Assembly (NCBI RefSeq): GCF_032854445.1
Contig: NC_088297.1
Location: 14,993,335-15,057,334 of the forward strand
Direction of reading: 5' to 3'
DNA: 64,000 bases
From: Liolophura sinensis
Lineage: Eukaryota; Mollusca; Polyplacophora; Chitonida; Chitonidae
Shown one piece after another: positions 287-54,471 of the stretch. How positions within the stretch are numbered: the stretch's first letter is position 1; each line of letters begins with the position of its first letter. A model generated the notes under the pieces. It was not told where the DNA came from and ran no database searches. It saw nothing but the letters and a program-made list of their open reading frames with translations. The position numbers and the translations under genes were made by a program.

Positions 287-454
287 ATTCCATCTTCTTC
301 TTCGCCACGTACTCCTCGTGCAGTTTCTTCAGGTGAGCGGATACGGCCATCATGCAAGGCCCTAACTCCTTCTCGGTATCCTCCCAACTGCCCTTCATCA
401 GATCCATTCCTGCTTTCATCTTCATCATCATCTCCATCATCTCATGGGCACAGT
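287..454 (-). CDS. Gene A exon 13: Met-rich exon, last visible
   Basis: 168 bases, phase 1 to 1, acceptor TCACTCAG, donor T|GTAAGG. It encodes CAHEMMEMMMKMKAGMDLMK, then ELGPCMMAVSAHLKKLHEEY. At least one further exon must lie beyond position 1. Confidence 0.78.
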
Positions 455-3400
455 CTGAGTGAAGATTTAATTGGCTGATTGAGTGAGGGAGTCAGAAGTT
501 GGGGTCTAACGTCGTACTAAACAATTTTTTCAGTCATTTGACGAGGAAGGGATCCTTAGAGTACATGTTATGTGCCTCCTCCTTGCAACACGTATTTCCA
601 ACGCTCTTTTAGTGGTGCTTCACTGAGACGACTTGCTGAAGGCAAATAAGTTGCCCCGCCAGAGCTATTATACTGATACCGGTCAACCAGTCGTTGCACT
701 ATCCCTTTCAAGCTGGACGCCAGGCGATGAAGTTACTAGCTATTGTGTCTTAGGTGTGACTCGACCCTGGATTGACCCTAGATCTACCGCCTCCCGAAGC
801 GGACGCTCTACCAACTGTATTATCGGGGCCGGTCTTGAATGATTGATTGATTGCTTCATGGATTGACTGATTGGATGATTGTTTGATTGCTTCGTCAATT
901 GAATGACTGGTTGATCGATCAGAAGATTGATTGAGTGGTTTACTGATTGACTAAATAACTGATTAAATCATTGATTAACTGATTGATTAGATGAAATGCT
1001 CTTAAGTGTCGCTGTATATGAGAGTAGATTTTTATATTATTAGCAAGCACAATAAAACAGACTGATTGACGGACTAACTGACTGAATGAATGACTCGTCG
1101 ACTGACTAACTGATTCGTCGATTTATCCATTCAAAGATGTGTTAATAGATTGTTTGATTGGATGGTTTGTTAGTTGATTGATTGATTGGTTGGAAAGTTG
1201 TCAGCTAACAGTGGAAGCTTAAGAATACATTTTCAGAGGATTTTTTAACAGTGTACGAAAAGTGAAATTCTTTGCAATAATATGAAAGTCCATCATATCA
1301 TAACTATTAAAAAATATTAAACGATAACAGGCTACCTTTTTTCTGTCCTTCATCCTCTCCGTCCTTTTTGTCACCCATGTCATCCATCTTTTCGCCCAGC
1401 ATCTTCTTCATTAACATCGTCATAAAGTACTTATTCATCTCTTTCTTTTGCTTTTCTTCCATCTCCTTCTTTTCTGCTTCTTCCTTCTTCTTCTCCATTT
1501 CATTCTTCATCCATTCTTGCATCTCGGTCATTTTCTCTTCCATTTTTTCCTTCATTTCTTCCATCTCATAAGGTTTGTCTTGCGAAACTGAAATTCACAT
1601 GTTTTTAGCCAGAATTATTTTTTTGTTTATCTCAAGGAAGTTTATAGTTTATATACTTATTTCATTGTTGTTTAATGCAATACTCAGGCATTGTTAACTT
1701 TTACAACGGCGGCCATTTTTTATATGGGTTGAAGAAACCGAAATACGTGAGTAAACAACCAACCTTTGGAAAGTTACTAGGTACGATGGGTCATGGTGAT
1801 AACAGGTCGCCAGTAAGGAAACCGAAATGCTTGAGTAAACAAGCAACCTTTGGAAAGTTTTTGGGTACGATGGGCCATGGTGATAACAGGTCACCGGTAA
1901 GGAAACTCGAAAAGCCTGAGTAAACCACCAGCCTTTGGAGAGTTATTAGGTACCATGGGTCATGGTGATAACAGATCACCAGAAAGGAAACCGAAATGCC
2001 TGAGTAAACAAGCAACCTTTGGAAAGTTTTTGGGTACGATGGGTCATGGTGATAACAGGTCGCCAGTAAGGAAACTGAAATGCCTGAGTAAACAACCTAC
2101 CTTTGGAAAGTTACTGGGTACGATGGGTCATGGTGATAACAGGTCACCAGTAAGGAAACCGAAATGCCTGAGTAAATAACCAACCTTTGGAAAGTTACTG
2201 GGTACGATGGGTCATGGTGATAACAGGTCGTCAGTAAGGGAACTGAAATTCCTGAGTAAACAACCTACCTTTGGGAAGTTACTAGGTACCATGGGTCATG
2301 GTGATAACAGGTCGCCAGTAAGGAAACCGAAATGCTTGAGTAAACAACCAACCTTTGGAAAGTTACTAGGTACGATGGGTCATGGTGATAACAGGTCACC
2401 AGTAAGGAAACCGAAATGCTTGAGTAAACAGCCAACCTTTGGAAAGTTACTAGGTACGATGGGTCATGGTGATAACAGGTCACCAGTAAGGAAACCGAAA
2501 TGTCTGAGTAAACAACCAACCTTTGGAAAGTTACTGGGTACCATGGATCATGGTGATAACAGGTCGCCAGTAAGGAAACTGAAATGCCTGAGTAAACAAA
2601 CTACCTTTGGAAAGTTACTAGGTACCATGGGTCATGGTGATAACAGGTCACCAGTAAGGAAACCGAAATGCTTGAGTAAACAACCAACCTTTGGAAAGTT
2701 ACTAGGTACGATGGGTCATGGTGATAACAGGTCACCAGAAAGGAAACCGAAATGCCTGAGTAAACAACCTACCTTTGGGAAGTTACTAGGTACCATGGGT
2801 CATGGTGATAACAGGTCGCCAGTAAGGAAACCGAAATGCTTGAGTAAACAACCAACCTTTGGAAAGTTACTAGGTACGATGGGTCATGGTGATAACAGGT
2901 CACCAGTAAGGAAACCGAAATGCCCGAGTAAACAACCAACCTTTGGGAAGTTACTAGGTACGATGGGTCATGGTGATAACAGGTCGCCAGTAAGGAAACC
3001 GAAATGCTTGAGTAAACAGCCAACCTTTGGAAAGTTACTAGGTACGATGGGTCATGGTGATAACAGGTCGCCAGTAAGGAAACCGAAATGCCTGAGTAAA
3101 CAACCAACCTTTGGGAAGTTACTGGGTACGACAGGTCGCCAGTTAAGGTCACGTACGACAACGTAAAAAAGCACCGTCGACCACTTTTTAATGCCAGCAA
3201 TGAACTCACATGAACCTGTACCTCTTGTGTTGTAGAGAGGCAACAGTTTGTAATGAAATAATGTAGCCAAGAAAACAGCGCAGATAATGAGACAATCATT
3301 TCCCACCTTAAAAAGCTTGTACCAAGCTTTGTAAAAACATAGCTTCTCTGCTGTTACGCTGCAGTCCTTGTGAACAGCGACATTGCTTTATGTGCACAGT

Positions 3401-6400
3401 TGTACAGAAACACTGTACCTTTAAAGATCAGGACACATAGAGTATTCTGGTTTTCTAACTCTTGACGTCCACACTCACAATCTTTGTCCAGTTCTGGGCA
3501 CATGTCTTTCATCTTCTCCATCATTTGCTTTTTTTCCTCCTCGTCTTGAGCTTTCTGCAGTTTCTCCCACATATCCTTCCACGTTGTGAACTTGGGTAGA
3601 CACTGTCCCAGCATTTTTCCTGAAAAGTAACAGATACCTCGATATTGAAGTATGCATCACGAGACTATTCTCTCAACACCCGAATGTTATATCCTTTCAT
3701 CTTCAAAAAGAGTCAAAAAAGACTCTTTTCTGGACAATTCGAGTTCGGGTCAAATATATATATAATACTTTTCGAAAAATGAAGCAATGCGGCGAATGAG
3801 GTGCTGTGACAAATTGGAGTATCCGTTTTAAATCTGCACGGCAGACATACGGTCACGTGATCACATAACAGATTTGTATAACAACTAAGATATATGCTTA
3901 GAGATTTTCACTGCATGACCCATAGGTGGACAGCAGCGAACGAAAGAGAAACGTCAAAATTGTAAATGTACGTCAGACATATTGATGAAAACCGTGCCTA
4001 AAACTGACAGAATTCAGTTGACCGTCTTCTCGACACTGTTGCATTAACGGCAGCAGTAATGCGGCTTCTATTCATACAGCAGAACAATTTCATTCTCTCA
4101 CTGTGAAATAAAATCGCTGGAATTTGTTGTTAATCATATTTGTGTGACTCATGACATTTAGGTGTTAGTTTTTGTGACTCATGACATTTAGGTGTTAGTT
4201 TTTGTGAATCATGACATTTAGGTGTTAGTTTTGTGACTCATGACATTTAGGTGTTAGTTTTTGTGAATCGTGACATTTAGGCGTTAGTTTTTGTGAATCA
4301 TGACATTAGGTGTTAGTTTTTACCAGTCCTTTTCAATTACCAGACCTTATATTGATGACGTGTTAGTCTAAAACAATTCCCCGAAACTACTAAAAATAAT
4401 CTTTTTAACGTTCGATCTTCTTTACTTCATTAGGCGTTAAATATTGCTGAGGTAGTGAAATCTATCCACTTTCGTTTAATATAAAGAAGACAACCAATAG
4501 TATGGAGAGAGTGAGTGCTTAGGGTTTAACGTAGTACGTAACAATTTGTCAGTCATATGGCGACGAAGGAGTCCTTAGAGTGTATGTAATGTGCTTCCAT
4601 ACTGCCCCACCCGAGCTATTATACTGATACGGGTCAATCAGTCCTTGCACTATCGCCTTAATGCTGACCTCCAAGCAGGTCTTAGGTGTGCCCCGGCCCA
4701 GGATTGAAAGGAAGAGAGGAAGCCAGCATGAGCTGGACTTGAACTCACAGCGACCGCTTTGGTGAGAGACTCCTGGGCCATTACGCTCATCTACCACGCT
4801 AAGCAATAAGGCCCACATGTATAGGGATAACCACCCTCCTAGACAGCGTAGCAAGGGTTGGAGGGGTTGGGGTTGGAGTTGGAGGGGGATGGGGGGGGGA
4901 ATGTTGATGGAGAATATTTAGGATTAGAGATCTTCAGACTATTCAACCCTAGAAAAAACGTAGAAATACCTTCTTCTTGAAATTCCTCAGAAGTGTGCAA
5001 GCCTCGGCTTCTGTTTTGTAGCCAGCCTTCATTTGGCTAATGATAGTGTACGGATCAGCCGCTACTTTGAAGGTCTGAGCGCCAGCCAACATCAATTCGT
5101 TTTCCTCCGCCATTTTTGGCTATGTTGAAGGAGCACCTGTAAAATAACAGAGGAAACGTGGAAATGTCTGCTAATAAACATTGTCCGTGTATAAAACTAA
5201 ACTATTCGCCTAAATCGTGTAGTCGCAGGTTCGAATCCAGCTCTCGCCAGTTTGGCTGCGGTTTTAAATCAGTTTCCTTTCCAAATACCTGTCGAAGGGC
5301 ATTTGCTTATCAAGGACACAGCTGACTGAATAAGCATTTATAACACAATTTCCATACATAGTAATATTGACAAATAAAGTCGAAAATCTAGAGTCTATTT
5401 AAAAAATGTGACCGAATTGCAATGCGTTTTAACTTCTTAATCTTAATAATTTCAAAATATAATATAAATAATTGGAAAAATAAAAATAAATAATTTCTTT
5501 GATCATCTGTGATCAATATATGGCTAATACACCGAAGAGCTCATTCACCAGAAACATGCCAATCGTAAATTGTTTTCAGCAATCGACCCAGGGCTGGTTT
5601 CATGAAGCATACTTAGTGTTAAGTTGCCCTTAGCTAAGTGCACTCTATATCTCTACAACACATGTCGTCATGGTAGTTAAGGGCAAACTAAGTTAACTGA
5701 GTTTCATGGAACCGGCCCTTGAGCTGTTAGTAATTAAATCTAAACACAAAAAGTATCTTTTCACTGAATTACTTGAATAATTCCAGAGAAAGTGTGAATT
5801 TTATGAAATATCACCTCATTTTTAAAATCTAATTCTGCTTAAGCGATGGTGCTATGGGATGTGCAATCTGCTAATACTTTAAGTATTTATATGAACTGTT
5901 AGAATAAATTTATAACTGATGTAAACTGACAAGCAACCGTATTTCACTGTTAAGTGTGGTCATTTGCCACACTGTAGTCGTTGCTCTGGTTTTACTCTCT
6001 GTGCTGTAGTCTTTCTATATTGTGTAAGTCCTTTATAATACGTTTTCGATGGATACATATTTCTTAAGGAATCTAACACACGTAGCTGAAATGCCTACAG
6101 AGAAATTGGCTTTCGCCGGTGATGTTATTCACTTACACTGCTATAGCTGCTAACGTTTAACATGTTCAATATACGTTTATTTCTTAAACACGCGTTTATT
6201 TAATAAATAGCATTGATTTAATTCATAAATACATGCAGTTATTTTATAAATACTAACACCTGTTGTATAAAATTAAACATTAAGCACGTTTGTTTTCTGT
6301 TGCAAAGATACGTTTATCACACGTTTAAAGGTTAAACGTCTGTTTCTTAGTGTACGGTATAAGATATATATTTTATAGAAACAGAAGAGAAATAAAAAAT

Positions 6401-9400
6401 AATAATAATAAAAAATTACCTGAACTGTAGCTCACAATCGGACTCGGAATAATCCGCAGGTTGATTTCCACTTTCTTTTTTTGCTTGAACAACAGGAAGG
6501 CTTCTTCCTGCTCGCCCTGTGACGGCATGGCCGGGAGGTAAGGCACATCGCACATCCCATTGCTGACGTCACCTCCGTGGATATTAGTGACCAACCAGAG
6601 CAGCATAGGCTTCTCGGGGCTCCCGCCAGCGGGCCAGTCGGTGACCTGAGAGACGTAAGCCAGGGTAAACCAGTCCTCTGCAAAGAAAAATGGAGGGAAA
6701 GTTAGTTTTAATGAAGAACATATAAATAGAGCATGATATCTGGGTCCAGTTTAACAAAATTACATAAATCAATTCTTTTTCATATTTATCGCATAAAGAT
6801 AAGATGACTTCTGTGAAGGTGGCAGCTGACTGAATTTATTGTCCCAAACCCCAGTAACAGAACACTAATGACAACGAATGAATGTTTAATTTGCTCACGG
6901 TTCCGTTATGATTAACGTACAGAAACTGGTGTGTCATAACTCAAGCATTCGGTTTCCAAGATATAGCTTTAAAGCAGAATACGGATAAACCATAAGACAT
7001 GTACTTTGAAATTCTTGGCTTCGGTGATCAGAAAGCCAAAATGCAATTACTTATGCTTGTACTGTGTCACAGACTGGATCTATCATCTCCTAATGATTGA
7101 CTGATTGATTGACTGACTGACTGACTGACTGACTGACTGACTGACTGACTGACTGACCGACTGACTGACTGACTGTCTTACTGGCTGTCTTACAGACTGA
7201 CTGACTGACTGACTGACTTTGACTGACTGACTTACTGACTGGCTGTCTTACTGACTGACTGACTGTCTTACTGACTGATTGACTGACTGACTGACTGACT
7301 GACTGGCTGTCTTACTGACTGACTGACTGACTGACTGTCTTACTGACTGACCAACTGTGTTATTGACTGACTGACTGTCTTACTGACTGTCTTACTGACT
7401 GACTGACTGACTGACTGACTGACTGACTGACTGACTGACTGACTGACTGACTGACTGACTGACTGACTGACTGACTGACTGACTGATAGGCAGACTAACT
7501 GACTAGCTGTCTTACTGACTGGCTGACTGTCTTACTGACTGACTGACTGACTGACTGACAGACAGACAGACTAACTGACTGGTTGCCTTACTGACTGACT
7601 GACAGGCAGACTAACTGACTGCTTGTCTTACTGACTGACTGACAGGCAGACTAACTGGCTGACTGACTGGCTGATTGATTAAATAGCTGGCGTTGTGTTC
7701 AAGAATTGTTGCACGGTGGCTGTCAGATTTATAGGTGGAGGAGTCCAGGAATACCAGGAATAAACCACCGACCTTCGTCAAGCGACTGACAGACATTTTG
7801 ACAAAGCCATAGCCGAAGCAGAGAGAGTTCGATTCGGAGCTGAAGGATCTGGTAGTCGCCGAAAGCCGTCGCTAAAACCAGCTGAGCCAGCTAGCTCCAC
7901 ATCCTATCATCTCCGTCAGGTAACATCCCCGTGTACGCCCTACGGACGATGGTATACATGTTTTACCTTTCCAACTCTCGTCCCCGTCCATCGTATGATA
8001 CCAGACCCACGGAATCGTTCTGGTTTTCCGGGCGGGTACGGGTTTTCCAGTCCCAGCTGTGATCTCCACTTTATCCTCTCTGGCCACCACGAAGGAAAAA
8101 TAAGAAATAAAGACATTGCTAAAAGCTGTCACAACGAAGGAAAAAAAATAGGTATATAGACATGGCTGACAGTGGCCACGGCGAATAAAATAACAGGAAT
8201 ATAGACATTACTGAGAGAAAACAGGAATACAGGAAAGACGAAAAAACAAAAAAACAAAAAAAAAACAGGTACATAGACATTGCGATCAATAGCAATGACG
8301 AAGAAAAGAACAGGAATATGGACATTGCTGCAATGTGGTTAAACACATTGCTGAAAATATTTCACCTAATTTGTTAATGGTTTTAAGTCTTTTGTTTAAA
8401 ATGAGCGAAAAACTGTAAGAACTTGAACAACTAACTTTGCAACTGCTGCAGACCAACCCAGTAAGTGATAAGAACACCTGAAGACACGTACTTGTAGTGG
8501 AACACCCTGCCGCAGACTGGGTCTAACATTTCCCCTGGGGTGATGAACTTTGCCATCACACCCAACTTCAGCTGGTCAGCCTTATCACCGATAAGGACGT
8601 TAGCTGCGATAAAAAAGTAAATAAAAAGTTGCAGCCACAATGAATGATGACGTGATTAAACACAGATATGAGCAATATAAATACTTGATCGACGTTTAAA
8701 GCCGTATTTTTTGAATTACACTTTAAAAATTAATCTGTTAATTTTGACTGATAGTCTGTTGTCTGAGGTGATGCCAGAATGTATTCTGTTATTATTACAC
8801 AATGTTTTGTCATATTCAATGTAATATCCTAATACCCAGTAGTGTAATAGAATCTCCATGTCCAATTCACAGAATATGTGTGTTATATTTAACAGAATGA
8901 TCTGCTGCAAATAACAGAATACATTCCAGCATTACTCGGACAATAGACTTTCTGTTAAAATTAACAGATTAATTTTTTGAGTATATATAGCGGCCGTCAG
9001 AGATTACGTGTGGAGGTAAACAGAGGTGCCCTGTCTAATCCAATGAACCTCGCGAGGTATCTGACAAACCCCCTGACACCACAGAAACGGAAACATTCAG
9101 CCAAAGCTGGATTTGAACAAGTGACCTCAATAGTCAAGGGCTGGAGGAACGCAGGAGCCGGTGCTAACCTATCAATGACAATTTAATAGCAGTCATAAAA
9201 GTTATATTCTGACGTAATCTCAAGACGAATATGGTTATCACTCAAGTCGAAGCAGGTCAGAAGATAACCGCTCATGTTTAACTTTAAAAGAAAAGAAGAC
9301 ATAGAAATGTTTCAGAAAACATCAGACGAAAGAGCGTGACAATTATTTTCTAATACGGCCTTTGGCATTTTTTTCTATTTCTTAAAAAAAAAAAGCTATT

Positions 9401-15793: not shown

Positions 15794-15960
15794 TTTGGAT
15801 CTGTCTACAGGGCTGGGGTAATCACCCTGGTACTGTATGCAGGGACCGCCAAGAAATGGATCGACTGTAAAGCACACGCCCCCACCTTATGAATATCCAA
15901 CACCCGTGATTGGCGTGTGCCGATGAACGCTTTTTAGACCCTGATGTGAAAGGAGTGCGG
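15794..15960 (-). promoter_or_regulatory. Probable 5' UTR and proximal promoter of gene A
   Basis: Immediately upstream of the gene A start on the minus strand. It holds GGTGGGGGCGTGTGC and CACACGCCAATCACGGGTG, GC/CACCC-like boxes, and a weak TATA-like TATTCATAAGG. Gene B has GGCGTGGCC and GTGGGTGTGTC in the same place. Function is inferred only from position. Confidence 0.3.
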
Positions 15961-32612: not shown

Positions 32613-32692
32613 ACGAAGCATAAACAACTCCTTAAATTTAATTTTTGACAAGGTTCTGTCGTTCATCTGTTATGTAAATCCAGCACCAAATT

Positions 32693-33514: not shown

Positions 33515-33576
33515 CTACATCTCTTTCATATCCCCCATCATCCCAGCCACCATTTTCTTCACGAGGGCATTTTTCT
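33515..33576 (-). CDS. Gene B exon 18: terminal exon and stop
   Basis: The acceptor is GTTGCAG. It encodes EKNALVKKMVAGMMGDMKEM followed by TAG at 33515-33517. The Met-rich end fits the rest of the protein. A polyadenylation signal lies about 100 bases downstream. Confidence 0.75.
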
Positions 33577-42500: not shown

Positions 42501-45500
42501 AGCTGGCCAACCAAAGTTTCGCGAGAAGTATGTTGGTAAAATGAATTTTTTTTTGGTGTCACATGACAATCTCGTGTTTAGATAAATGTCTTTTCTGTTT
42601 TATAGTCTTTTTGTTGAAAATTTTAATGTTTGATAAAAAGGAAGCTCAGGTTTAGCCTTTTAGAAAAGGAAGTGAAGACAAGTGGAAGACATCATGATCA
42701 GAAACATCAATGAAAACGGTATCTAAAATATTTATTAGTACACATTACATAAATGAAGCAAATGTCCTTTGATGTCATTCACGTCAAAGAACATAAATAT
42801 GGTTTATAAAACCCACTCAAAATTTAAATATTAAAATGTATGTAATTAATATAAAAAATCAGCAAATGTTGTTCATATAGGTATTAGCACGCATTACATA
42901 AAGGAAACAAAAGTCATTTTGATGTCATACACGCCAAAGAACAAAAACATGGTTCATAAAACCCACACAAAATTCAAATATTAAAATGTATTTAATTAAA
43001 TTATAAACAAACAAACAAACAAACAGTGAAAGTACTTTTAAATACCGGTATAGTTTTCAGCAACGCGCCTGATAAAGACGACTACTTAGTTGTTTTCTTA
43101 TCCCTAAGCCACTGATAAAGAGTCAGGCTTGTATTTGTCATCAATGAAACATACTCACAGTGCTCTCCCAGCTCTGGACACATGTTCTTCATTTTCTCCA
43201 TGATCATCTTCTTCTGGAATTCCATCACACATTCGTCCAATTCCTTCTTCAAAGCTTTCCAGGCGTCGAATTTTGGCAGACATTCTCCGAGCATGCGGCC
43301 TGAAGTGAAATCAGTAGTTTTGCCGTGCATTGGGAATGAGGTTTAATGATTCAATGTTCAATGCAATGATATTCCTGAAAAACTGACAACGGTAGCCCAA
43401 CGGAATGTACAGCAGATGTACGATCAAATCTAGCTTGTTATACAAATTTATGCACTACTATTTTGATTAATACTAACGTTTCCTGGCAGGACACGTGAAG
43501 CCAAATGCTAAACCATGATAAAAAATCTGAATTCTAGGCTAATAAAACATTGTACTATCATTAATGTTGAAGCCCTATAGGGCCTGTCTTACAAAAGTGT
43601 CAAAAAGCTATACCTCAAGTGCAGATACCATACTGACTTAACGCCACATGCTTCTGTGGACCTTATGTCACAGGCGTATTATGCGTCTACTTCTTCAGGC
43701 CGGCCCTGTGTACGCTGATTACATCAAGATGTAATTGTACGCATTCAAAATACACTAACTCACACCTTACCCGTGAGCTTCCTGGAAATTAAGTCAGTTT
43801 TGTCCCAGACTTTGCTCGGCCATTATTCCTCGATAATTGTATTGTCCCCATCTTATAAAACAATTTCTCAGACAGTGGATATTTAAAGATAAAAAGTTAC
43901 GTGTTTATTGTTTCATAGTCGCCCAGTTTTCCTCACCCTCATGGTTGAACTTAGCCAGTTCTCGGCACCCCTCTTCTGGCTTCAGCATTTCCTCTTTGAC
44001 CCAGTGGGTGATGGAGACGGGATCGGCCTTGACCTGGAAGGGCAGAGCGCCCACCAGCTTCAGGCCCTTGTCTTTCACCAGGCGACGGATATCCCAGTTA
44101 CACCTGTAATTATTGATTGATTGACTGATTGAATGACATTGAATTGAATAATATTTTATTGATTGTTCACACCTTTATTCGTTTGATTGTTTTTAACGCT
44201 GTTCTCAAGGCTTTCTCTCTTATACGATGGCTGGTCAGTTTTATGAGTGGACAAAACCGGGATGCCCGGGGTAAATTAGCAGATGATTGTATAGAACTTC
44301 ACTGATGCTTAAAGAGTTCACAAGAATAGACGAAAGGTGAGGAGAAGAAGGGATGAGGATAAAAGACATGAAAGGTGAAAAGAAAGCCGTCGAAGATACA
44401 ACAATGCGAAACATTTTATTTTAGCACCAAATTCAATAAGCCTTCTCCGCCATAACCTGAAAAGTACTGTTTTCGGAAAACAAGAAGATAGGAGAAAAAA
44501 ATGAACTTAACAAAGCTTAAGAAAGTTACCCCTGAGTCTGAGATTAAAGATACCGAGGTAGTGCACTGACCTGAATTGATAATGACAGGGCGTATCCTTG
44601 GCATACTCGCTGGGGTCTATCTCAATGTGCTTAGATTGCTTGTAGAGAAGGAAAGTGGCCTGCGCCACCCCGCGGGGCGCTAACACGGGGAAGTAAGGCA
44701 CACTGCAGTCCCCGGAGCTGAGGTCAGTGTTCTTGATGTTGGACACAACCCAGTTGGCGAAAGGCTCTTCTCTGGAGTTTGTGTCGGTGATGGTCTGGTC
44801 AACCAACAACAGGGTGAACCAATGATCTTTCTTCTCGGCTAGAAGAGGCAACCAATCAAAATTGATTATTCAATGTTTAGCTAGAGTGGATCAGACAGCC
44901 AGTCAAAACCAGACTATGACATTTGTCTAGGAGGAACGACCATATAAAATCACTTATTCACCTTTAAAATTCACTTTCTGTTTGGTTTGAATAAACACTA
45001 CGTCGATAAGAAGTAATTTTCAGAATGGCTGTACAAAACAGCTTATCAAACTCACGTTATCTAATTTGACGGCTAAGCAAACTCAGTTACTTAAGCTTAA
45101 AATTAACTTTGTATTTGCTGGAAGGTTCTATATCGTGGGTAAGTAGTTCCGATTTAGAGGAAACATATTACATACTGATGATGGATGAGTCACAAAATGA
45201 ATAAATGACGTCACGACATCACGTACAAATCTAGTATAGCACCTTAATACATGAATATATCAACTTTATCAACGCTGAGTAAAATAACGGCTTGGTATAT
45301 TAACAGATTAAAACTCCTGACCTGATTTGTTACTGGGCTTGTCGGATTCTCCCATTTTGTCGCCACCCATTTTATCGCCATCCATTTTGTCGCCGCCCAT
45401 TTTGTCACCTTCCATTTTGTCGCCGCCCATTTTGTCACCGTCCATTTTGTCTCCACCCATTTTATCGCCTTCCATGTTACCACCCTCAGTATTGGTCTGT

Positions 45501-48500
45501 TCCATCATGGGCCGAAGGTAGACATGAGGCAGAGCACGGACCTTTCTGGATGGGAAGGCCTTAGTGCTGTTCCACTTTACGTACACCTCATCATCCCTTA
45601 AAGGAGGTAAACAGCTACATATGACGTCATGTTTATATGTTTGCGATGGTAACACGAATTATGGGGGAAAAAACATTCACGTTTGTTGTTGTTGTTGTTG
45701 CATAAGTATGTTTTAGTGCTAATGGTTGTTAAACACGGTTGTTAAGCGATGTGACGTGGTGTTTAGTATGTAAACATTTCACATGTTTACTATAACAAAC
45801 CCATTTCTTTAGTTACTAAACATTGTTTTTATAAGTAATGACCAGGGCGCATTTCTAAGCTGTAACAGAAATGTGTTTAAAAATGAAACACTTGTTTTTA
45901 GTGTGTCCTATGTCTGTCATATTTTCTTACATGTAATGGAAAACGCGGGCACAGAGCGGCTCTGTCACTACTTCTTTGGTCTTGAAAACAGCCTTCATTC
46001 CGATCATCAAGTCGGCGTCACCAATAAGAGGGTTTTCTGAAAGACAAAACATAAAATAAGCACTTATTTTACAGGACAATATCAGTCTATGTGATGTATT
46101 ATATTTCAGGCTGCGTAGCCAATGACCAACGGTCCCTGGTTCAAATCCCAGTCATGCTCGAAGGTCTACGAGATTTAGAGTTTGGATTTATTCCGGTTAT
46201 GTCGTTAACAGTTCAATCGAACCACCACCAATTAAGTAAAAAGATTCTCAAAATCGTCGTAAAGAATAAATCAAACCGGAAAATGTCATACGGTGCATGA
46301 GAACCAGACCACGCGTTGGATATTGTTGGTAATTTAACAAGCTATAACAATGTTCTCCAGTCTCTTCCAACCATATAACTGGCCGATATTGAATGAGTGA
46401 AAAGCTCTAGAAAATGGCATAATAACAAGAACCAAGTACATAAATTAAGTAAGTGCTGACGACAAAGAACGATACAATCCCAGTTGTTATACTGCAATCC
46501 CCAAAAGGGCCACCCCACCATTTACTGAGTTTTTATACTGCAATCCCCAAAAGGGCTGTCCCACGATTTACCCAGTTGTTATACTGCTATCCCGAAAAGA
46601 GCCCTCCCACTATTTACCCAGTTTTTTTACTGCAAACCCCAAAAGGGCCAATCACCATTTACATAGTTGTTATACTGCAATCCCAAAAGGGCCATCCACC
46701 ATTTACTGAGCTGTTATACTGCAATCCCCAAAAGGGCCGTCCCACGATTTACCCAGTTGTTATACTGCAATCCCGAAAAGAACCGTCCCACCATTTACTC
46801 AGTTGTTAGACTGCAATCCCTAAAAGGGCCACCCCTCCATTTATATGCATCTTTCAATTTGATTACCCATAAATGGAATGGCCAAAAACAAAAACATATA
46901 ACCCATAAAAGACAGTGCTATATATTCGAGTCTGAATTTTATCAGTATTTTTCCTAATATGATTAAAACGCCTTAAAACATCAATCAAGCAAATAATATA
47001 ACTAAAATTTGTAAATTATGATCAAAAGCTGAAATATGACTCCCACTGTTTGTCATTTTGTGTAGCCCATTATCCACGAATTACGGGAAATGAGAAAACA
47101 CCGGAAAAAATCTGTTAATTTGACGAGAAAATCTGCTGTCTGAGTGATGCTTGATCTATAGTGTTATAACAAAATGTTCTGTTAGTTTAATGCAATCTTT
47201 TTGTTGAGTTAATAAAATGTGTGTGCTATATTTAACAGAGAAGCTGTTGCATTGGCAGAATAATTTGTATAGTTAAGCATCCCCTAGAAAACAGAAATTT
47301 TCTTTTAAATTTAAAAGATTCCTTTTTAGTAGATAGTTACAATACTTACTGGCAGCTCTGAAGCGCCACAGCTTGTGACAAGCCACTTGCTCGTTGAACG
47401 CGGCGATAGCAGCAATTGAAAATTCGTCCTCTTGGACCCGAAATCCTCCAGCGAACACCAAGTTTAGAGAGTTGTTCATAGCGAACTGCAGGACGTCGAA
47501 GTCACATCTAGCCAATAGAAATATAGAGCAGAAAATATTAATATCTACAACAGAAAAGTGATTAGCGAGTCAACGCCACGCAGTGACTCAGAAGTCTCTC
47601 ACCAATGAGCTCGCTATGAGGTCGAGTCCAGCTCATGTTGGCTTCCTCTGCTGTCGTACGTGCGAAGGTCTGTCAGCAACCTGCGGATGGTCGTGCGTTT
47701 CCCCGCCCGGTTTCCTGCCACCATAATGCTGGCCGTCGTCGTATAAGTGAAGTATTCTTGGGTACGACGTGGAACGCCAATCAAACAAACACAAAAATCA
47801 CTATCCGGCTGAAATTTGCCCGACATTGCGTTATTCATTCATTCTTTGGACTCTATGGCTACATTGTAAGTCCTGTTATCCCTATTTTAAAGTTGAACAT
47901 AAGACAAGAAGATCCAACTTAAGATGTCTTACTACTACAAAACTTTATATCTGTTACGACCAGTATACTGTAAATTGCAGATTTCGTACTACTGTGAAAC
48001 TTAAGATGTCTTACTACTGTAAAACTTTATATCTGTTACGACCAGTATACTGTAAATTGCAGATTTCGTACTACTGTGAAACTTAAGATGTCTTACTACT
48101 GTAAAACTTTATATCTATTACGACCAGTATACTGTAAATTGCAGATTTCGTACTAATATAATACTTAAGATGTCTTACTACTGTAAAACTTTATATCTGT
48201 TACGACCAGTATACTGTAAATTGCAGATTTCCTACTACTGTGAAACTTAAGATGTCTTACTACTGTAAAACTTTATATCTGTTACGACCAGTATACTGTA
48301 AATTGCAGATTTTTTACTGCTGTGAAACTTAAGATGTCTTACTACTGTAAAACTTTATATCTATTACGACCAGTATACTGTAAATTGCAGATTTTTTTAC
48401 TGCTGTGAAACTTAAGATGTCTTACTACTGTAAAACTTTATATCTATTACTATACTGTGAACTCAAGATTTCCTACGACTGAGAAACTTTAAGTCTCTTA

Positions 48501-51500
48501 TTACTGTAATAAATGCAAAATTTTAGATCTTTTAGATAATGTTACTACTATGAAACTGTTGATCTGTTACAAATGTAAAGCGTTACATCTGGTACCACTG
48601 TTACTACTATAAAGCTTTACATCTGGTACTACTGTTTTTACTCTAAAACTTTACATCAAGTACTACTGTTACTACTGTAAATCTTTAAGTTCGTTAATAG
48701 TGTAATATTTTAGGTCTGTTAACAGCGTAAAGCTTTAGATCTGTTACTCATGTAAATGTTTGAATATTTTACTATAGTATTACACTGGATACTTCAACAA
48801 TAATATTAGAAAATTGTTACATGCACTACTATGAGGTTGAAGATTTACTAATGATTGGAGATTTTGTACATTTGATACTATTGTTGCAATCTCGCTACTA
48901 ACTGAAGATTTCTTACCACTCTAAATCTTCAAATGTGTAAAATTAAAAATTTTGGGAATGTTGTAGATTCCCAAATTGCTTGTTCGCATTCGTTAAACAG
49001 GCAGATTCAAAAATAAAGTGGGATGCTATACCTTAAACCCAATCCACACTCGGTGTTGACGTAATCGCTGATGTCTGGGTTGGTGAACTCCGCTGGTTGG
49101 CTGTACACGAGCACGTGTATGCCACTTGTGATATTCTCGGGTACCACCGGGTGATGTGGGGCAACAACAACGCCAGTGTTGATATCTCCTCCACGGACGT
49201 TCACCCTTAACTCCTGGACAAACGGCCTCTCTCTACTACCGTACATTGGGATAATTATGCTCTGATCTACCACAAGGTAGGTATAAAGCTTGGCTGAAAA
49301 CAAGACACAATCAAAATCCAAATTTGAACCAGTGCACAAATTCCTAAACTTCCTAGAGCAAAACATTTTAACTGTAGCTGTGGTTTGAATTTTGGTTTTA
49401 GTCTTAAGACATTTAATAAATATGGGCCCAGGAGCGGTCGTCATTCACCTCTTGTCAGGTGACTGGGTGGAGTATTGTATCTGTATTTGTGGTGTTCATG
49501 ATGATATCGGCCACCATTATTTAGTGAGGCAGCAGTCTTAGCAACGGTTTCAGAACCGTCCTGTTACAAAGAGCATCTGCTGTGATGATACGAAATGATA
49601 AGGACGTTAATCCAGCACAAAACAAACGGCTAACCAGTGCAATTTAGAACAGAAGTTCTTCCACCTATGTATGTATGTATGTATGTATGTATGTATGTAT
49701 GTATGTATGTATGGATGGATGGATGGATGGATGGATGGATAGATGGATGCTTGGGATTTTACAGCAGTGTAGCACAGATAGTTATGCTAAAACTACCCAT
49801 TCCGTGTTTTGAACCAGTGGCGCCAGAATGAAACCTCTATTCGTCATCTATAATGACCTGTGTCAGGCATCTAGATCAAGTTTGTCACTAGAGATCTTCG
49901 AGGTTTCCTCACGCTTCAACTTACTTGTGTCAAGTCCTGTGAACTGAACTTGTGGGGCCGTGCGCACCTGTGAGGCTTTCCGCTCGATATCAGGGGCAGG
50001 TAAATCTATCACCGTGCTGCTCCCCCTGTAGAACAACAACAGCAACATAAGGAAGATGGTCCTATAGTTGGGAATCACCGGATATCGCCACACAAAGGTA
50101 GTGACAAAAGGCCGTATCTGAGCCAGCGGGAGCTGGCTTCGAACCTACGACCTACAGCTTGTTAACACAACTGCTTCAGTGACGAAGAGTTAGCAAAAAC
50201 TGAACTTTGAAGGTCAAGGGTACATGTCTTCTGTGGGACGTTTTGAAACTTGTAATTTTGATTGAAGTTAGACATATTTCTGGTGAAAGATAAACAGGGA
50301 GCATATATGTTTCATCTCCAGTTAATGTGCTCATGCTTCATTGTCTGACTGTCGTTCCTAGCAAGTTCTCTGACCTTCTGGCCCTGCACGACACGTGTGG
50401 GCATGTTTGGACTTTGCCTCACCACTAATATTCTTGCGCGGACTTTAAATCAACATTCCTTATAATACAAATACAAATAACAGAAATACTTCAGAGATCT
50501 TGAGAAGTATCATTTTTGGTCAATTTCCGAACAATTTCCAGTATTTCAATTACAGTCAGGAAATTCAGTATATGGGGTTGTCTCAGGGAACGGGGATTTT
50601 CGCATTTGGGTGCAGTGCTGTGTAGTCAAACATTAAATGTAAGTAAATGGAAAATTATATTTATGGACAGTGGGGGGAAGCATCGATATATACACAACTT
50701 ACTGGACATCGATGTATTGTCCACACACGGATCCCACTTTGTCGGCTGCTGTCCTGTACGTCAGTTTCACCTTTACATTGGTTGTGAAGTTCTCGGGCAC
50801 CAACGGGTTCGTGACATTAGGGCTTTGCCCCACCACTGTAACATAGAATTTTTGTTTAAAAAAATCAGATGAAGAAATGATTTATTAATTTTGATTTGTG
50901 TTATACCGTACTCTGATGGGAAGAAAGCAAGGGAAATCCCAGGTAAACCTTCCCACGTAGGGCCGGAGAGGCAGCCAGCAAGAACTGGACTTGAACTCAC
51001 AGCGACCGCATTGGTGAAAGCCTCATGGGTCATTGCGCCGCGGTGGAACGCTAACCACCTCGGCCACGGAAACCCAGATGAAGAAATGGTGTTTGTATAG
51101 AAAACAAATTGTTCGTCATGCAGTGGAACTGATATAGGTCCGGTTTATTCCGGTTTATTTAGAGTTCTTGAGTTCGCCGATCCATGGCTTGTAGCGCAAT
51201 GGTAGCAGTCAGCTGTTCACGACACTCGTGACGACACAGTCTAACCTCCATGTCTTCCACTGATGTGATGTGCATTTATGTACGTCACAGTAAGTTTGTC
51301 AGTAGCTTATCTCTCCGTTCACACTACTGACCGCTGTTTTAAGTATAAGTGAACACTTTTCGAGTATGGAGTATGGCGTTTCAGCAACAATCAAATGACT
51401 GATATAAATGAAATATTTTAGAGTTGCATTTTTGCAAATGAGTGAGTGAGATTTCTACCGCCCTTTTATCTAACGCTGCTTCACGCCTTACCCGATCCAT

Positions 51501-52031: not shown

Positions 52032-54471
52032 GCACAATTTATTACAGCTCTATGGGGTACAACACTCGAGGGTTAAGTAAAGGTTAAGAGGTCAAACTCG
52101 ACAGAGACCCCCAAAAATGGACTATTTACGGTGGTAGTTATATATTATGGCTGCAGTAATAGCTGAAGTAATTAAGCAAGTTGAATGCTGAGAATCTTCA
52201 TTATGACGCATTCTTCTTGTTCTGTGGTGAATTAACGAGTGGCTACCGGTAAAACATGGACATATTTACCAGGTCATTTTGGGAGTGATCGGAGTATGGA
52301 ATCCTAGCCAGGCGACCGACTCTAATTGCTTTAGATGTTTATGATGGGCTGTGAGGATTGTACTGTAGAGTATGAAGGAGTCGTCGCTCAAATGGGAGCT
52401 CGGCCCTATCGATATTGGCTGGGAGAAGGAGCAAACTATTTTCTTTTTTAGATGAAGCCTATATCAGAGATGCGCAGAAGCATACGCTTTTCAAGGACAA
52501 ATTTCAGTAGTTAACGTAGATATCTCGAGTTTTAACAACATAGGAGTTTTATAGGTTCAGCTTATTTGAAATCGCTTTTTTTCTGCTAGAGAGGTGGGGG
52601 TGGGGGTGAGGGAGAGTGCCAGAGTTAAATATGTCAGGGTGTATGTTAGGTGCCTGGGTCATCAATGGCAGCGATGCATGCGGGCGGAGACCACCTACAC
52701 CCTGTATGACAACACTTGGAATGAATTATTTCAACTGGGTTAGAGTTGACTTTAGCCTGGGACACAAATGGTGAATAGATGTAAAGCGTTACCACTCAAT
52801 CGGTCAGTCTAAAGTCTTCTGGGCTGCTGACCCCAAAGTTTGCTTACCGATAATGTCAGTAAACATTTGTGAGCAGTTCGGGATATAATGCTCCTAATTA
52901 GTATGCTAGCCATAGAACCAACTTAAGATTAGCATCTCAACAATAAATACGTGAAAGCTTCTCTTCTGAGTTGCAAAGTCTACTAATTAGGTAGAGGGTT
53001 CAAATCCGTGATTTGTTTTCTTTTTGGGTATTTTTTTTCTTGCTATTCCTGGCTATCCTTCTGCTACTCAGGCAAACTTTGACCATGCCGTACAAATGAA
53101 TGTTATAACAGATTGGTTACCAGTTTGCTCTGAAGTGAGACGTTCTGTAAGGAAGTACCCAGTCAGTTTCCCAGGTAACATCACATTGATAAATGAATGG
53201 TTATGATTGGCATTACCAACCAGTTCAAAACAAAAGCGTAACCAGTCTGTTTCCAGATAATACGATGAGAAGTCAGTTACCAAATTGAACAGACTGATAT
53301 AGTTCGATGTGGAGCTGTTCTCTGACCATTTAGTACAAAACCTTAGGTACCGGAAGCCTTAATGCCGAATGTTCCATAATGTCTTTTATGCTTTTGTCGG
53401 TTTCAGTCTTAATTTTTTTTATTTATCTCATAGGTGGTTTACACCGTATTCAAAAATATTTCACGTATAAGACAGCTGGCTAACCTTCCCACGTGCGATC
53501 GGAGAGGAAGCTAGCATGAGCTGGACCTGAACTCACAGCTACCGCACTGGTGAGAGGTCCCAGAGTAATTGTGCTGTGATCGCATGCTAACCACTCGGCC
53601 AGAGTCATAGATACGACGATACAATGAGGAATTGCTAGTATAATAATACCTACTTTAAAGTTTGTCAACATGGAAAACGATATGCAACCACGGAAAAGGG
53701 TTAAACGTTCGGTATGCATGCATGAGAGTGGAATCAAATGTTTTCCCTTTTATAACATGCAGTGGCTGTGAGTTCAAGCCCAGCTCCTGCTAGCTTCCTC
53801 TCCGGTCGTACGTGTGGAAGTCTTGCAGCAACATGCGGATGGTCGTGGGTTTCAGAGCCCAGTTTCCTCCACCATAATGCTGGCCCTCGTCGCTTAAGTA
53901 AAATATTCTCGAATATCGGGCCCACTGGGTTGCGTGAAGGAAGTATTAAAAACAAATATTTTACGTAACTTTGTAACAATAGATGGATATGAAGTGCTAA
54001 AATATGCAGCCGGTTGGGTCAAATAAGTATGCAAGAATAGACAGTTATGCGTAATTCCTATATAAGTGACTTCGAGCTCTTGATCTCAGAATAATGTATG
54101 GAAATAATGTATCGAATAAATAGTGCTATAAAAACGATCTTAGTCCCTTCTGACAAAATTATTCCGCAACAGCAACATACCCTAACATAATCAATTCCTA
54201 TTACCGGTACATTGTAGAGTTTCAATAACTGAAGTCCGATGCGGAGTGACTTACATGAACTGCGTTAACGATACACAACATACACACAGTTTCTGTTAAT
54301 TACAAAAAGAAATTTACCAAACAAATTGCTCCCCTGGATTTGCAAAGCCATCCTGTGTTAGATCACTATAATTCTGATAAAATGGGTATATTGTAAACAG
54401 AACATACCTGTTGGTAAAAGCAGAAAGAGTCGCCAAGCGGCGATCGCCAGCATCTTCGACCGTACGCCCAT
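33515..54471 (-). CDS. Gene B: secreted tandem PEBP-like / methionine-rich repeat protein (18 exons, complete)
   Basis: Assembled from 18 exons with GT-AG borders and matching phases: 54408-54471, 50703-50835, 49925-50025, 49032-49293, 47350-47507, 45931-46036, 45322-45596, 44571-44838, 43937-44103, 43159-43299, 42316-42435, 41880-41933, 39564-41567, 38964-38994, 38581-38643, 37639-37752, 37027-37047, 33515-33576. The product is about 1381 residues: a signal peptide (1-21), PEBP-like module 1 (about 22-239), module 2 (about 240-511), a Cys-containing linker (512-558) and a Met/Lys/Glu-rich tail (559-1381) with a 58-residue tandem repeat. Two single-base deletions in exon 13 interrupt the frame in this assembly; allowing for them, the exon lengths sum to a multiple of three and every junction phase fits. 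The protein is probably secreted. Its function is unknown; a structural, matrix or redox role is speculation. Gene A downstream is its paralogue. Confidence 0.82.
34100..34737. other. Intron 17 of gene B: non-coding, possible repeat
   Basis: This lies in the intron between exons 17 and 18 of gene B (33577-37026). AT-rich with no coding signal; phrases such as TGACGTCACAACTTCGAC and AACGGTTCTAACGAG hint at an old element. Confidence 0.4.
34738..35018 (-). mobile_element. SINE family 1, full length
   Basis: Tail (TTTA)n on plus, TTTACGCCGTACTCAAG, GACGGCCAGCATTTTGG, GGAAGCCAGCATGAGCTGG, and head ending GGCCACGGAGC followed by an 18-base C run. It lies in gene B intron 17. Confidence 0.85.
35019..37026. 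other. Remainder of gene B intron 17
   Basis: No exon found. It contains short repeats of GTGAAAAAGGTTACAACAAAA-like words at 35800-35900 and TATGCAAGG/GGCATAA words at 35290-35420. Confidence 0.5.
37027..37047 (-). CDS. Gene B exon 17: 21-base micro-exon
   Basis: The acceptor is AATTTCAG and the donor G|GTATGT. Seven codons reading EKEAKNE keep phase 1 on both sides, so the exon can be skipped without a frameshift. It is supported by the good splice sites and lysine/glutamate-rich content. Confidence 0.6.
37450..37556 (-). mobile_element. SINE family 1 remnant
   Basis: Degenerate body with AATATTTCATCTATGTGACG, AGCATTAAGGTGGGACGAAAC and AGACCTTCCCATCTACGAC; both ends lost. It is in the intron just downstream of gene B exon 16. 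Confidence 0.55.
37639..37752 (-). CDS. Gene B exon 16: Met/Lys-rich exon
   Basis: 114 bases, phase 1 to 1. It encodes EEELKKGPDSKCGMMMKELM, then a Met/Lys helix to FMDMQE. The acceptor region (TTTTTTCAG) is repeated three more times upstream in the intron at 37765-37970. Confidence 0.78.
37765..37970. repeat. 64-base tandem repeat containing copies of the exon 16 splice acceptor
   Basis: Three units of ATATCGAAAAATAATTAACG, TGGAAGAAGGTATAAAATG and an A-rich end. The unit starts with CTGAAAAA on plus, the reverse complement of the TTTTTCAG acceptor used by exon 16 at 37753. Confidence 0.85.
38395..38440. repeat. GGGA-rich simple repeat
   Basis: A G-rich run (GGGGGGAGGGAGGGGAGGAAG and on), in the intron between exons 15 and 16 of gene B. 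Confidence 0.8.
38581..38643 (-). CDS. Gene B exon 15: short Met/Lys-rich exon
   Basis: 63 bases, phase 1 to 1, acceptor TCGTTTAG, donor G|GTTAGT. It encodes KLDMVHDIMKKKMALEKMC, ending with a Cys near the junction. Confidence 0.72.
38964..38994 (-). CDS. Gene B exon 14: 31-base micro-exon
   Basis: The acceptor is GCTTTTAG and the donor G|GTACAT. It reads AFLTKHMAMK. It is the only visible exon that takes phase 0 (end of exon 13) to phase 1 (start of exon 15), which supports it despite its size. The assembly gap lies in the preceding intron, so another phase 0-0 exon could be hidden there. Confidence 0.6.
39093..39292. other. Assembly gap, 200 N
   Basis: Exactly 200 undefined bases, a round size that suggests an arbitrary gap. 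It lies in the gene B intron between exons 13 and 14, right after the long repeat exon. The translated X frames across it have no meaning. Confidence 0.98.
39564..41567 (-). CDS. Gene B exon 13: large Met/Trp/Lys repeat exon (two apparent frameshifts)
   Basis: A 2004-base exon with acceptor TCTTACAG and donor AAAA|GTAAGT. The first third holds divergent units (DWESKWDSWKNWGK, MMKEFWDKMKGGEKGG). Then come six near-identical units, normally 174 bases or 58 residues: a Trp half (DWDAKWESWKNWGKDEKK) and a helical half with 15 Met among 30 residues. One unit is four residues shorter. The tail is again divergent (KEFWDKMSKGGEKDKWEMM). Single G deletions against the unit consensus near 40752-40762 and 39973-39986 split it into three frames; allowing for both gives 668 codons and a phase 0 end. 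Antisense reading frames over this exon are shadows. Confidence 0.82.
41880..41933 (-). CDS. Gene B exon 12: short Met/Lys-rich exon
   Basis: 54-base symmetric phase 1 exon with acceptor TTTGTAG and donor G|GTATGA. It encodes DMKKEDMEMLIKKFLMD, an amphipathic helix. Confidence 0.72.
42316..42435 (-). CDS. Gene B exon 11: Met/Lys/Gly-rich
   Basis: Symmetric phase 1, acceptor TTAACTAG, donor G|GTAAGT. It encodes FSKEMKKWGDEKKGGEMGG, then MKDMGGKDDMKSMMG. Its start FSKEMKK matches the start FSQDKPYEM of gene A exon 12. Confidence 0.75.
43159..43299 (-). CDS. Gene B exon 10: Cys-containing helical linker
   Basis: Symmetric phase 1 exon of 141 bases, the same length as gene A exon 11. It encodes GRMLGECLPKFDAWK, a charged helix, and MKNMCPELGEHC. 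Three cysteines are visible before the Met-rich tail begins. Confidence 0.82.
43937..44103 (-). CDS. Gene B exon 9: C-terminal part of PEBP-like module 2
   Basis: Phases 2 to 1; 167 bases, the same length as gene A exon 10. It encodes RCNWDIRRLVKDKGLKLVGA then FQVKADPVSITHWV, equivalent to exon 5 in module 1 (RCDFDVLQFA ... FRVQEDEF). Confidence 0.83.
44165..44290 (-). mobile_element. SINE family 1 remnant
   Basis: TTTGATTGTTTTTAACGCTG, TCTCTCTTATACGATGGC and GGGATGCCCGGGGTAAATTAGC are diverged forms of the SINE 3' half. It lies in the intron between gene B exons 8 and 9. Confidence 0.5.
44571..44838 (-). CDS. Gene B exon 8: PEBP-like core of module 2
   Basis: Phases 1 to 2. DHWFTLLLVDQTITD, then WVVSNIKNTDLSSGDC, PYFPVLAPRG and ATFLLYKQ reproduce the PEBP core (LxMxDPDxP, WxVVNIxGxD, YxPxxPPxG, RYxFLLYxQ), with DQT in place of DPD and no HR before the LLYKQ strand. 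It aligns along its whole length with gene A exon 9. Confidence 0.86.
45322..45596 (-). CDS. Gene B exon 7: module 2 segment carrying a GDKM pentapeptide array
   Basis: Phases 2 to 1. The first 35 or so codons (DDEVYVKWN, FPSRKVRALPHVY) match gene A exon 8. Gene B then has an insertion of eight M-x-GDK pentapeptides (x = G, D or E) between about 45350 and 45477, absent from gene A, which makes this exon 275 bases against 113. The donor is G|GTCAGG. The antisense reading of the array is open but is a shadow. Confidence 0.8.
45931..46036 (-). CDS. Gene B exon 6: start of PEBP-like module 2
   Basis: Phases 1 to 2, with acceptor TCTTTCAG and donor AT|GTAAG. It encodes NPLIGDADLMIGMKAVF followed by EPLCARVFHYM, equivalent to exon 2 of module 1 (NPLVPE ... 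VCGQYIDV) and to gene A exon 7. Confidence 0.82.
46478..46845. repeat. 46-base tandem repeat, about 8 copies
   Basis: Units read TTGTTATACTGCAATCCC, CAAAAGGGCC and a CCACCATTTACCCAG end. Downstream frames are by-products. It is in the intron between gene B exons 5 and 6. Confidence 0.9.
47105..47330. mobile_element. Degenerate MITE related to the element at 8724-8976
   Basis: Shares AATCTGTTAATTT, CTGCTGTCTGAGTGATGC and GTGTGCTATATTTAACAGA with the gene A copy. The ends are weakly inverted. It lies 20 bases past the gene B exon 5 donor, in the homologous intron. Confidence 0.6.
47350..47507 (-). CDS. Gene B exon 5: C-terminal part of PEBP-like module 1
   Basis: Phases 2 to 1, with donor A|GTAAGT. 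RCDFDVLQFAMNNSLNLVFA and the following GGF/EDEF resemble the PEBP C-terminal segment (F-x-x-x-x-F-A then an aromatic-rich NFFxAxxD block). Gene A exon 6 is the orthologous position. Confidence 0.82.
47559..47796 (+). mobile_element. SINE family 1
   Basis: Head GTGATTAGCGAGTCAACG, B box GAGGTCGAGTCCAGCTC, body CAACCTGCGGATGGTCGTG and ACCATAATGCTGGCCGTCG, end CCAATCAAACAAACAC. In the intron between gene B exons 4 and 5. Confidence 0.8.
47919..48500. repeat. 82-base tandem repeat, about 7 copies, with a degenerate tail to about 48930
   Basis: Units contain AAGATGTCTTACTACTGT, AAAACTTTATATCTGTTACG, ACCAGTATACTGTAAATTGC and AGATTTCGTACTACTG. The tail to 48930 has looser TTACTACTGTAAA-type words. 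Confidence 0.9.
49032..49293 (-). CDS. Gene B exon 4: PEBP-like core of module 1
   Basis: The acceptor is TTTTCAG and the donor AG|GTATAG, phases 1 to 2. The order KLYTYLVVDQS, then VNVRGGDINTG, then SGIHVLVYSQP, then ECGLGLR follows the PEBP fold (LxMxDPDxP, hxVNIxGxDxxxG, GxHRYxFLLYxQ). The usual DPDxP is replaced by DQS, and GxHR by GIHV. In gene A this exon is divided by an extra intron. Confidence 0.82.
49661..49750. repeat. (GTAT)n then (GGAT)n microsatellite
   Basis: About 12 GTAT units followed by about 8 GGAT units, in the intron between gene B exons 3 and 4. Confidence 0.95.
49925..50025 (-). CDS. Gene B exon 3: PEBP-like module 1, second exon
   Basis: The acceptor is TTCTACAG and the donor GTAAGT, phases 2 to 1. 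It encodes a charged segment ending RTAPQVQFTGLDT, matching ARVPPQVTIQGSAS in gene A exon 3. Confidence 0.78.
50703..50835 (-). CDS. Gene B exon 2: start of PEBP-like module 1
   Basis: The acceptor is TTACAG and the donor GTAAGT, phases 1 to 2. It encodes a segment containing NPLVPENF, then YRTAADKVGSVCGQYIDV. It aligns with gene A exon 2 (NPLFPE, FRSATEKIGPVCNRYITV), sharing a Cys that probably forms a disulphide. Confidence 0.8.
50878..51078 (-). mobile_element. SINE family 1
   Basis: TTGTGTTATACCGTACTC near the tail, an internal deletion, then CAGCAAGAACTGGACTTGAAC, ACAGCGACCGCATTGG and head ending GGCCACGG. Just upstream of gene B exon 2 in intron 1. Confidence 0.75.
51441..51667 (-). 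mobile_element. SINE family 2 with an internal deletion
   Basis: GAGTGAGTGAG start on plus, CAGTCGTTGCACTATCCC, GCTGAACGCCAAGCGAGG, and a tRNA-like head ending CGGGGCAGG. In gene B intron 1. Confidence 0.75.
51943..52056. repeat. Palindrome with a long (AT)n centre
   Basis: The left arm CTGTAATAAATTGTGCCGAT and right arm ATCGGCACAATTTATTACAG are reverse complements apart from isolated changes, and flank about 60 bases of pure AT. The arms extend through CATAGA/CTATGG. A strong cruciform former, in intron 1 of gene B. Confidence 0.85.
52057..53414. other. Gene B intron 1, nothing recognised
   Basis: No exon or repeat family stands out. TAGGTAGAGGGTTCAAATCC at about 52988-53008 resembles a B box but lacks a full tRNA-like fold. 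Short repeated words ACCAGTTTG/CCAGTCTGTTTCC occur around 53120-53260. Confidence 0.5.
53415..53606 (-). mobile_element. SINE family 1, internally deleted
   Basis: Tail, TTTACACCGTATTC, ATATTTCACGTATAAGACAG, then GGAGAGGAAGCTAGCATGAG and CTCACAGCTACCGCACTGG, head ending CCACTCGGCC. In gene B intron 1. Confidence 0.75.
53757..53925 (+). mobile_element. SINE family 1 fragment
   Basis: Starts at the B-box region GTGAGTTCAAGCCCAGCTCC and runs through GCGGATGGTCGTGGG, CCACCATAATGCTGGCCC and AAAATATTCTCGAATATCG. In gene B intron 1, about 150 bases from the copy at 53415-53606 and in opposite orientation. Confidence 0.75.
54408..54471 (-). CDS. Gene B exon 1: start codon and signal peptide
   Basis: The ATG at 54471 opens 21 codons with a hydrophobic core (LAIAAWRLFLLL) and a small-residue end, as expected for a signal peptide. 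The donor is G|GTATGT, phase 1. Exon 1 of gene A has the same length (64 bases of coding sequence) and phase and shares the 12-mer ctggcgatcgcc. A second in-frame Met at codon 7 would also leave a signal-like segment. Confidence 0.75.

Follow-up and report, generated by a model that had tools for sequence, protein, structure and literature searches.

Two tandem chiton genes predicted to encode secreted proteins with paired PEBP-like domains and methionine-rich tails

Our question was whether two neighbouring genes of the chiton Liolophura sinensis (Polyplacophora, Chitonidae) join a pair of PEBP-like domains to a methionine-rich tail, and what such proteins might be for. An earlier note, made from the DNA alone, had described two head-to-tail genes on the minus strand of the 64,000-nucleotide stretch analysed here (the window), both with signal peptides and both carrying this fusion. 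Exons and splice sites were read by eye from the sequence and then verified by script. The gene pair was confirmed, and the interpretation given in the note is supported in part: gene B starts at 54471 and extends to 33517 when a candidate terminal exon is included, and gene A starts at 15793, has its last in-window exon end at 287 and probably continues past the window edge. B is LOC135463815 and A is LOC135463402, predicted L. sinensis proteins of 888 and 404 amino acids that are both labelled 'uncharacterized'. The spliced readings are identical to these proteins over 616 of 616 residues for B (through exon 12) and 399 of 399 for A (through exon 9), so the joins up to these exons have been predicted independently. 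Both genes have what by eye is a signal-peptide-like start, which supports the claim of secretion; N-glycosylation motifs number 2 in the published A protein and 6 in that of B, and the two paralogues are 38% identical. These sequences are best explained as a pair of tandem duplicates that code for secreted structural proteins of the chiton, orphans both, and the database models of the two genes are probably truncated. The genome published as L. japonica (PMC11068029), the subject of a correction on species identity (PMC12441733), has a long-read coverage of 14x, and we infer that it is the same assembly as the one analysed here. New in this work are the identities of species and genes, a candidate exon structure of B to the stop codon, the phase pattern, the loss of ligand-site motifs, a constraint at the level of translation past the published stop and the problem of exon 10 in A.

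All exons described below lie on the minus strand. Exon 1 of gene B (54408-54471) holds the start codon and the signal-peptide-like start, ends in phase 1 and is identical to LOC135463815. The two PEBP-like domains of B take up four exons each, with the same series of intron phases, 1-2-1-2-1, in both. The N-terminal part of the first domain lies in exon 2 (50703-50835, phase 1 to 2), which is homologous to A exon 2 (E 4e-9), and the domain continues through exon 3 (49925-50025, phase 2 to 1, from the exon reading and phases) and a core in exon 4 (49032-49293, phase 1 to 2), matching PEBP1 at residues 84-165 (E 0.0057), to a C-terminal part in exon 5 (47350-47507, phase 2 to 1). The second domain begins in exon 6 (45931-46036, phase 1 to 2), runs through exon 7 (45322-45596, phase 2 to 1) and a core in exon 8 (44571-44838, phase 1 to 2), which matches mL38 (E 4.8e-5), and closes with its C-terminal part in exon 9 (43937-44103, phase 2 to 1); exons 5, 6 and 9 were assigned from the A/B comparison and the phases. 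Duplicated class 1-1 modules and phase patterns of this kind are typical of exon-shuffled extracellular mosaic proteins. Exon 7 also carries an inserted Gly-Asp-Lys-Met repeat with a 15-base period, expanded inside the second domain of B; at this site gene A has only a brief MDGD run, which could be what the repeat grew from.

That each protein has two PEBP-like domains, as the earlier note had it, is supported by the profile searches. Run against the PDB, a profile built from the four domains gave 22 hits at E<=1, of which 21 have the PEBP fold (4.4e-8 to 2.2e-3), and the best profile match to the second domain was mL38 (E 7.2e-9). The proposed check by structure did not return another fold, as the B core exon brought up PEBP folds throughout Foldseek ranks 1-26 and VIA rows 1-36, from a weak model that covers one exon at a mean pLDDT of 57; the full-length prediction has a mean pLDDT of 33.7. 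The folds retrieved first by the profiles and this core-exon model were mL38, PEBP1 and FT. Neither the full proteins nor any of the four domains matched a Pfam family, and among the three core exons tested PF01161 reached one, B exon 8, at 14.4 bits (E 0.049) against a curated cut-off of 24.

The ligand-site motifs of PEBP proteins are a DPDxP-type loop and the HxW-type and GxHR-type histidines. In alignments read by eye none of the four domains has the DPDxP-type loop, the first histidine is kept in the first domain of A only, and of the second there is a mere remnant, in the first domain of B. On this reading by eye the motifs are mostly lost and the domains seem poorly suited to the ligand that PEBP proteins usually bind. 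Set beside the PF01161 family, the domains have the fold, score below the sequence cut-off and do not match in the ligand-site motifs. They share the fold and the order of core elements with PEBP1/RKIP, FT/CEN and PF01161 proteins, but unlike PEBP1/RKIP and FT/CEN they fall below the Pfam cut-off, lack the DPDxP-type loop, are apparently secreted and stand in tandem. mL38 is a mitochondrial ribosomal protein that has a PEBP domain and no Met-rich tail; the chiton domain, unlike it, is duplicated and, judged by eye, secreted. Four cysteines sit at matching places in both domains of B (59/182/188/230 and 268/451/457/502), which suggests disulfides.

Gene A follows the plan of B closely, but not one to one as had been claimed, since it has an extra phase-0 intron in the first domain; its phases otherwise equal those of B through exon 8. 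Exon 1 (15730-15793) holds the start codon and the signal-peptide-like start and is identical to LOC135463402. The first domain and the start of the second lie between 14193 and 7967, in exons 2-8 (14193-14070, 13098-13001, 12000-11900, 11220-11054, 10024-9864, 8603-8492 and 8079-7967), as judged from the LOC135463402 match and the phases. Exon 9 (6420-6677) carries the second core and ends in phase 1, not 2; its end is read in a different frame from that of its B counterpart. Exon 10 (4970-5136) is a disrupted counterpart of B exon 9 with no frame open across it. Three tail exons of phase 1-1 come after it: exon 11 (3479-3619), the counterpart of B exon 10; exon 12 (1336-1587), open and Met/Lys/Glu-rich; and exon 13 (287-454), Met-rich and resembling the start of B exon 13. 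With exon 10 included the frame of gene A stops at residue 405, and the last residue of the published model, 404, lies inside this exon and ahead of the Met exons. Without exon 10, exons 1-9 and 11-13 read through as a single open frame of 586 residues; in the A tail exons the two alternative frames hold 19 and 7 stops. The claim that both genes have a Met-rich tail stands for B; in A the tail is in frame only with exon 10 left out, and the published prediction has the PEBP part separated from the Met exons by the exon 10 stop.

The tail of B begins with exon 10 (43159-43299), which is Met-rich and has Cys, and continues with the Met/Lys/Glu-rich exons 11 (42316-42435) and 12 (41880-41933) into exon 13 (39564-41567), a series of Met/Lys/Glu/Trp-rich repeats with a period of mostly 174 bases, or 58 amino acids. 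Past the published model we find exon 14 (38581-38643, Met/Lys-rich), exon 15 (37639-37752, Met-rich), a candidate micro-exon 16 of 21 bases (37027-37047, its phase read from the sequence) and a candidate terminal exon 17 (33517-33576), Met-rich, with an acceptor in phase and a stop codon at its end. Exons 10-12 and 14-16 are all of phase 1-1, and exons 11, 12, 14 and 15 come from the Met-rich scan together with the phases. The end of exon 13 can be read in two ways: a strong donor at 39564 leaves no base over and does not fit exon 14, and a weaker site slightly upstream of it, seen by eye, keeps phase 1. A run of exactly 200 N at 39093-39292, between exons 13 and 14, may be a scaffold gap of undefined size, so an exon of B could be missing there.

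The composition of these tails is far from chance. In the annotated B tail, 376 residues long, Lys makes up 24%, Met 16%, Glu 14%, Asp 11% and Trp 5%, with 15 MM, 10 MxM and 17 MxxM motifs, and exon 13 as far as it can be read reaches 20% Met; a scan of the window found no Met-rich candidate exons on the plus strand. Two tail segments are homologous in A and B beyond composition. A exon 11 and B exon 10 are 54% identical (E 5e-15, with none of 500 shuffles as high), and none of 500 shuffles reached the score of A exon 13 against the start of B exon 13. For A exon 12 a comparison with five tail exons of B brought out no clear counterpart, its scores being reached in 22 to 441 of 500 shuffles, so the exon match is incomplete here too. 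The fusion of PEBP domains and tail thus seems to be older than the A/B duplication. The Met/Lys/Glu-rich tails of the earlier note are in this way borne out by composition and by homology in part, with both published models ending early. Helical structure of the tail is weakly supported. An initial peak at 100 degrees weakened once exactly encoded letters were compared with shuffles, and we dropped helicity as a fact: the helix-band signal of the whole annotated tail was matched by 180 of 500 shuffles, that of exon 13 before its first frame break by 50 and that of four repeat units past this break by 26, the last with its strongest period at 112 degrees. Of 50 short windows taken from the annotated tail, 20 peak at 90-110 degrees (shuffled mean 9.0, maximum 21 in 100 shuffles); helix-like windows number 13 of 35 in exon 13 before the break and 8 of 29 in the repeats past it, against shuffled means of 6.3 and 5.4.

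The repeats of B exon 13 deserve a closer look. Their anchors are 246, 159, 173, 174, 174, 162, 174 and 173 bases apart, and each of the two 173-base spacings carries a one-base frame break beside a run of G, the first near 40762 and the second near 39983. The published model of B stops at the first of these, inside the 58-residue repeats. Across the six units past it (one partial), seven of the eight variable sites are synonymous and one is nonsynonymous, where 10 to 22% synonymous would be expected under neutrality (P 8e-7 to 2e-4 over the transition biases); with the more diverged unit before the break added, 8 of 16 are synonymous (P 7e-5 to 1.4e-2). Variation this close to synonymous-only means that the repeats past the break were translated and under selection until recently, so the frame breaks either arose very recently or are errors of the consensus, the latter being possible at a coverage of 14x if the assembly is that of PMC11068029. 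We rejected the idea that satellite DNA rich in purines merely happens to read as Met-rich, given the synonymous pattern and the zero count of plus-strand candidates.

What could such proteins do? The reading that we prefer, at somewhat less than an even chance, is that they are self-associating matrix proteins, an orphan chiton family that builds an insoluble extracellular matrix. It builds on what we observed of the domain anatomy, the exon phases, the partial tail homology and the constraint on the repeats; the helix content, self-association, cross-linking, tissue and link to mineral are inferred. The PEBP pair would probably serve as stable docking or assembly modules and not as ligand carriers, a role suggested by the disulfides that the matching cysteines may form. 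The Met/Lys/Glu/Trp-rich exons, in B expanded to the 58-residue repeats, would probably give charged segments, helical in part, whose self-association relies on Met and Trp contacts and on Lys-Glu/Asp charges and which may become covalently cross-linked. The product would be an insoluble extracellular matrix, perhaps mineralised or chitin-bearing. Chitons have shell plates and magnetite-hardened teeth.

Parallels come from shelled molluscs, and on this reading the chiton proteins would act in the manner of the insoluble Met-rich proteins of pearl oyster shell. In the insoluble shell matrix of Pinctada fucata most of the proteins identified in one study have a Met-rich region; knockdown of one of them, NU-5, led to nacre tablets of abnormal shape, and a recombinant piece of NU-5 rich in Met and Glu formed aggregates when calcium was present at pH 8, with antiparallel sheet as its largest structural class both with and without calcium (PMC7591529). 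Met-Lys cross-links have been proposed for these oyster proteins (PMC7591529), and Met-rich proteins also occur in Lottia and Haliotis shells (PMC4094399, PMC6003135). NU-5, P,NU-5 and LMP of P. fucata and MRP_LOTGI and GMP_LOTGI of Lottia resemble the chiton pair in being molluscan and Met-rich, and some in being repetitive and acidic as well (PMC7591529, PMC4094399), a likeness of description; a PEBP domain goes unmentioned for them in the parts of these papers considered here. The Met-rich, repetitive and secreted character common to such shell matrix proteins is found in the chiton pair as well, the signal start being judged by eye. RTMP1 of the chiton tooth matrix is likewise a secreted, repetitive chiton orphan, but is Gly/Ser-rich, unlike the tails of A and B (PMC6351634). 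Counting against the matrix reading, the main text of that tooth proteome contains none of the terms methionine, PEBP and phosphatidylethanolamine. Among the 22 cusp-specific proteins of Cryptochiton teeth three are peroxidasin-like, two of these being isoforms, and one peroxidasin-like protein specific to the mineralised cusp has a chitin-binding domain (PMC6351634). One could go further and imagine the Met/Lys repeats as a peroxidasin-type substrate, welded by sulfilimine bonds into a collagen-free scaffold in a hard part such as a shell plate or tooth, where the degenerate PEBP pair would be the docking head; both side chains are abundant in the tail, and we still consider this extension a long shot.

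The family appears to be restricted to its lineage, as had been proposed, as far as word-based searches of 5.77 billion proteins reach: they returned no relatives beyond the two Liolophura proteins, the sole other match being weak and unrelated (E 0.85), and within them the PEBP and Met-rich combination appears absent from other organisms. These searches need shared five-residue words, so distant relatives could be missed; query B failed to retrieve A. NCBIfam, a prokaryote library, gave 0 families. In the open-licence PMC literature we found no paper joining phosphatidylethanolamine-binding with Met-rich, mollusc, shell matrix or biomineralization, and none joining chiton with methionine-rich; a looser PEBP search (signal peptide, tandem or mL38) gave no such fusion by title or start of abstract among the matches listed. 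At this locus the PEBP fold serves as an exon module that was duplicated within an apparently secreted mosaic protein and fused to Met-rich repeats. If the matrix reading is true, the pair could also be used to ask whether chitons have Met-rich scaffolds in common with shelled molluscs, and whether such scaffolds are held together by Met-Lys cross-links.

Other explanations have to be weighed against an insoluble matrix. Unlikely in our view is a secreted reproductive, egg or mucus protein, that is, a fast-evolving nutrient, coat or slime component. The signal-peptide-like starts, the glycosylation motifs and the divergence of the paralogues would all suit this, as would the tissues of the five public transcriptomes listed in PMC11068029 (if the genome is the same), which are gonad, foot, digestive gland, gill and heart, with neither mantle nor radula; the make-up of the repeats, however, is probably closer to insoluble scaffolds than to soluble stores. 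A little less likely again is that the tail is dying, with real frame breaks that leave B as an 888-residue protein and A as a 404-residue double PEBP without a tail. Both published models do stop at the breaks, in A the last part of exon 9 and the whole of exon 10 are out of frame relative to B, and the strong donor of B exon 13 leaves no base where exon 14 needs one. The ratio of seven synonymous to one nonsynonymous difference past the first break argues the other way, as do the open and mutually in-phase B exons 14-17 and A exons 11-13, and the shallow 14x coverage, if it applies, would allow the breaks to be consensus errors.

Metal handling, with Met-rich segments that would take up Cu(I) or protect against iron-driven oxidation outside the cell and a PEBP pair acting as their carrier scaffold, seems to us distinctly unlikely. 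The counts of MM, MxM and MxxM in the annotated tail fit this idea, as such motifs are known from copper proteins, and chitons move much iron. A copper chaperone-like protein is also among the tooth-cusp proteins (PMC6351634). Against it, the Lys/Glu/Trp repeats at near-constant spacing look structural, and no iron-responsive element was found around the genes: the Rfam model had no match in the window at the gathering score, and none at E<=10 in 54400-55400, 15700-16700 and 32500-33580. Quite improbable, finally, are working secreted PEBPs, of ligand or protease-inhibitor type, to which the low-complexity tail would be incidental. The PEBP fold is supported and secreted PEBPs do exist, for example a homologue among moth silk components (PMC9684489), but the loss, by eye, of the DPDxP-type loop in all four domains and the replacement of most of both ligand-site histidines speak against them.

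The window holds further features that should be kept apart from the genes. At 1734-3131, in an intron of gene A, an 84-base unit is repeated about 16.6 times; the array has long open frames on both strands, so openness is no sign of coding there and we rejected it as a coding candidate. Many unrelated minisatellite arrays occur in introns and intergenic DNA at 13165-15195, 19489-20427, 23786-24625 and 47916-48450. A tRNA-like match on the minus strand at 57669-57737, just above threshold (30.1 bits, E 0.03), is perhaps the head of a tRNA-derived SINE.
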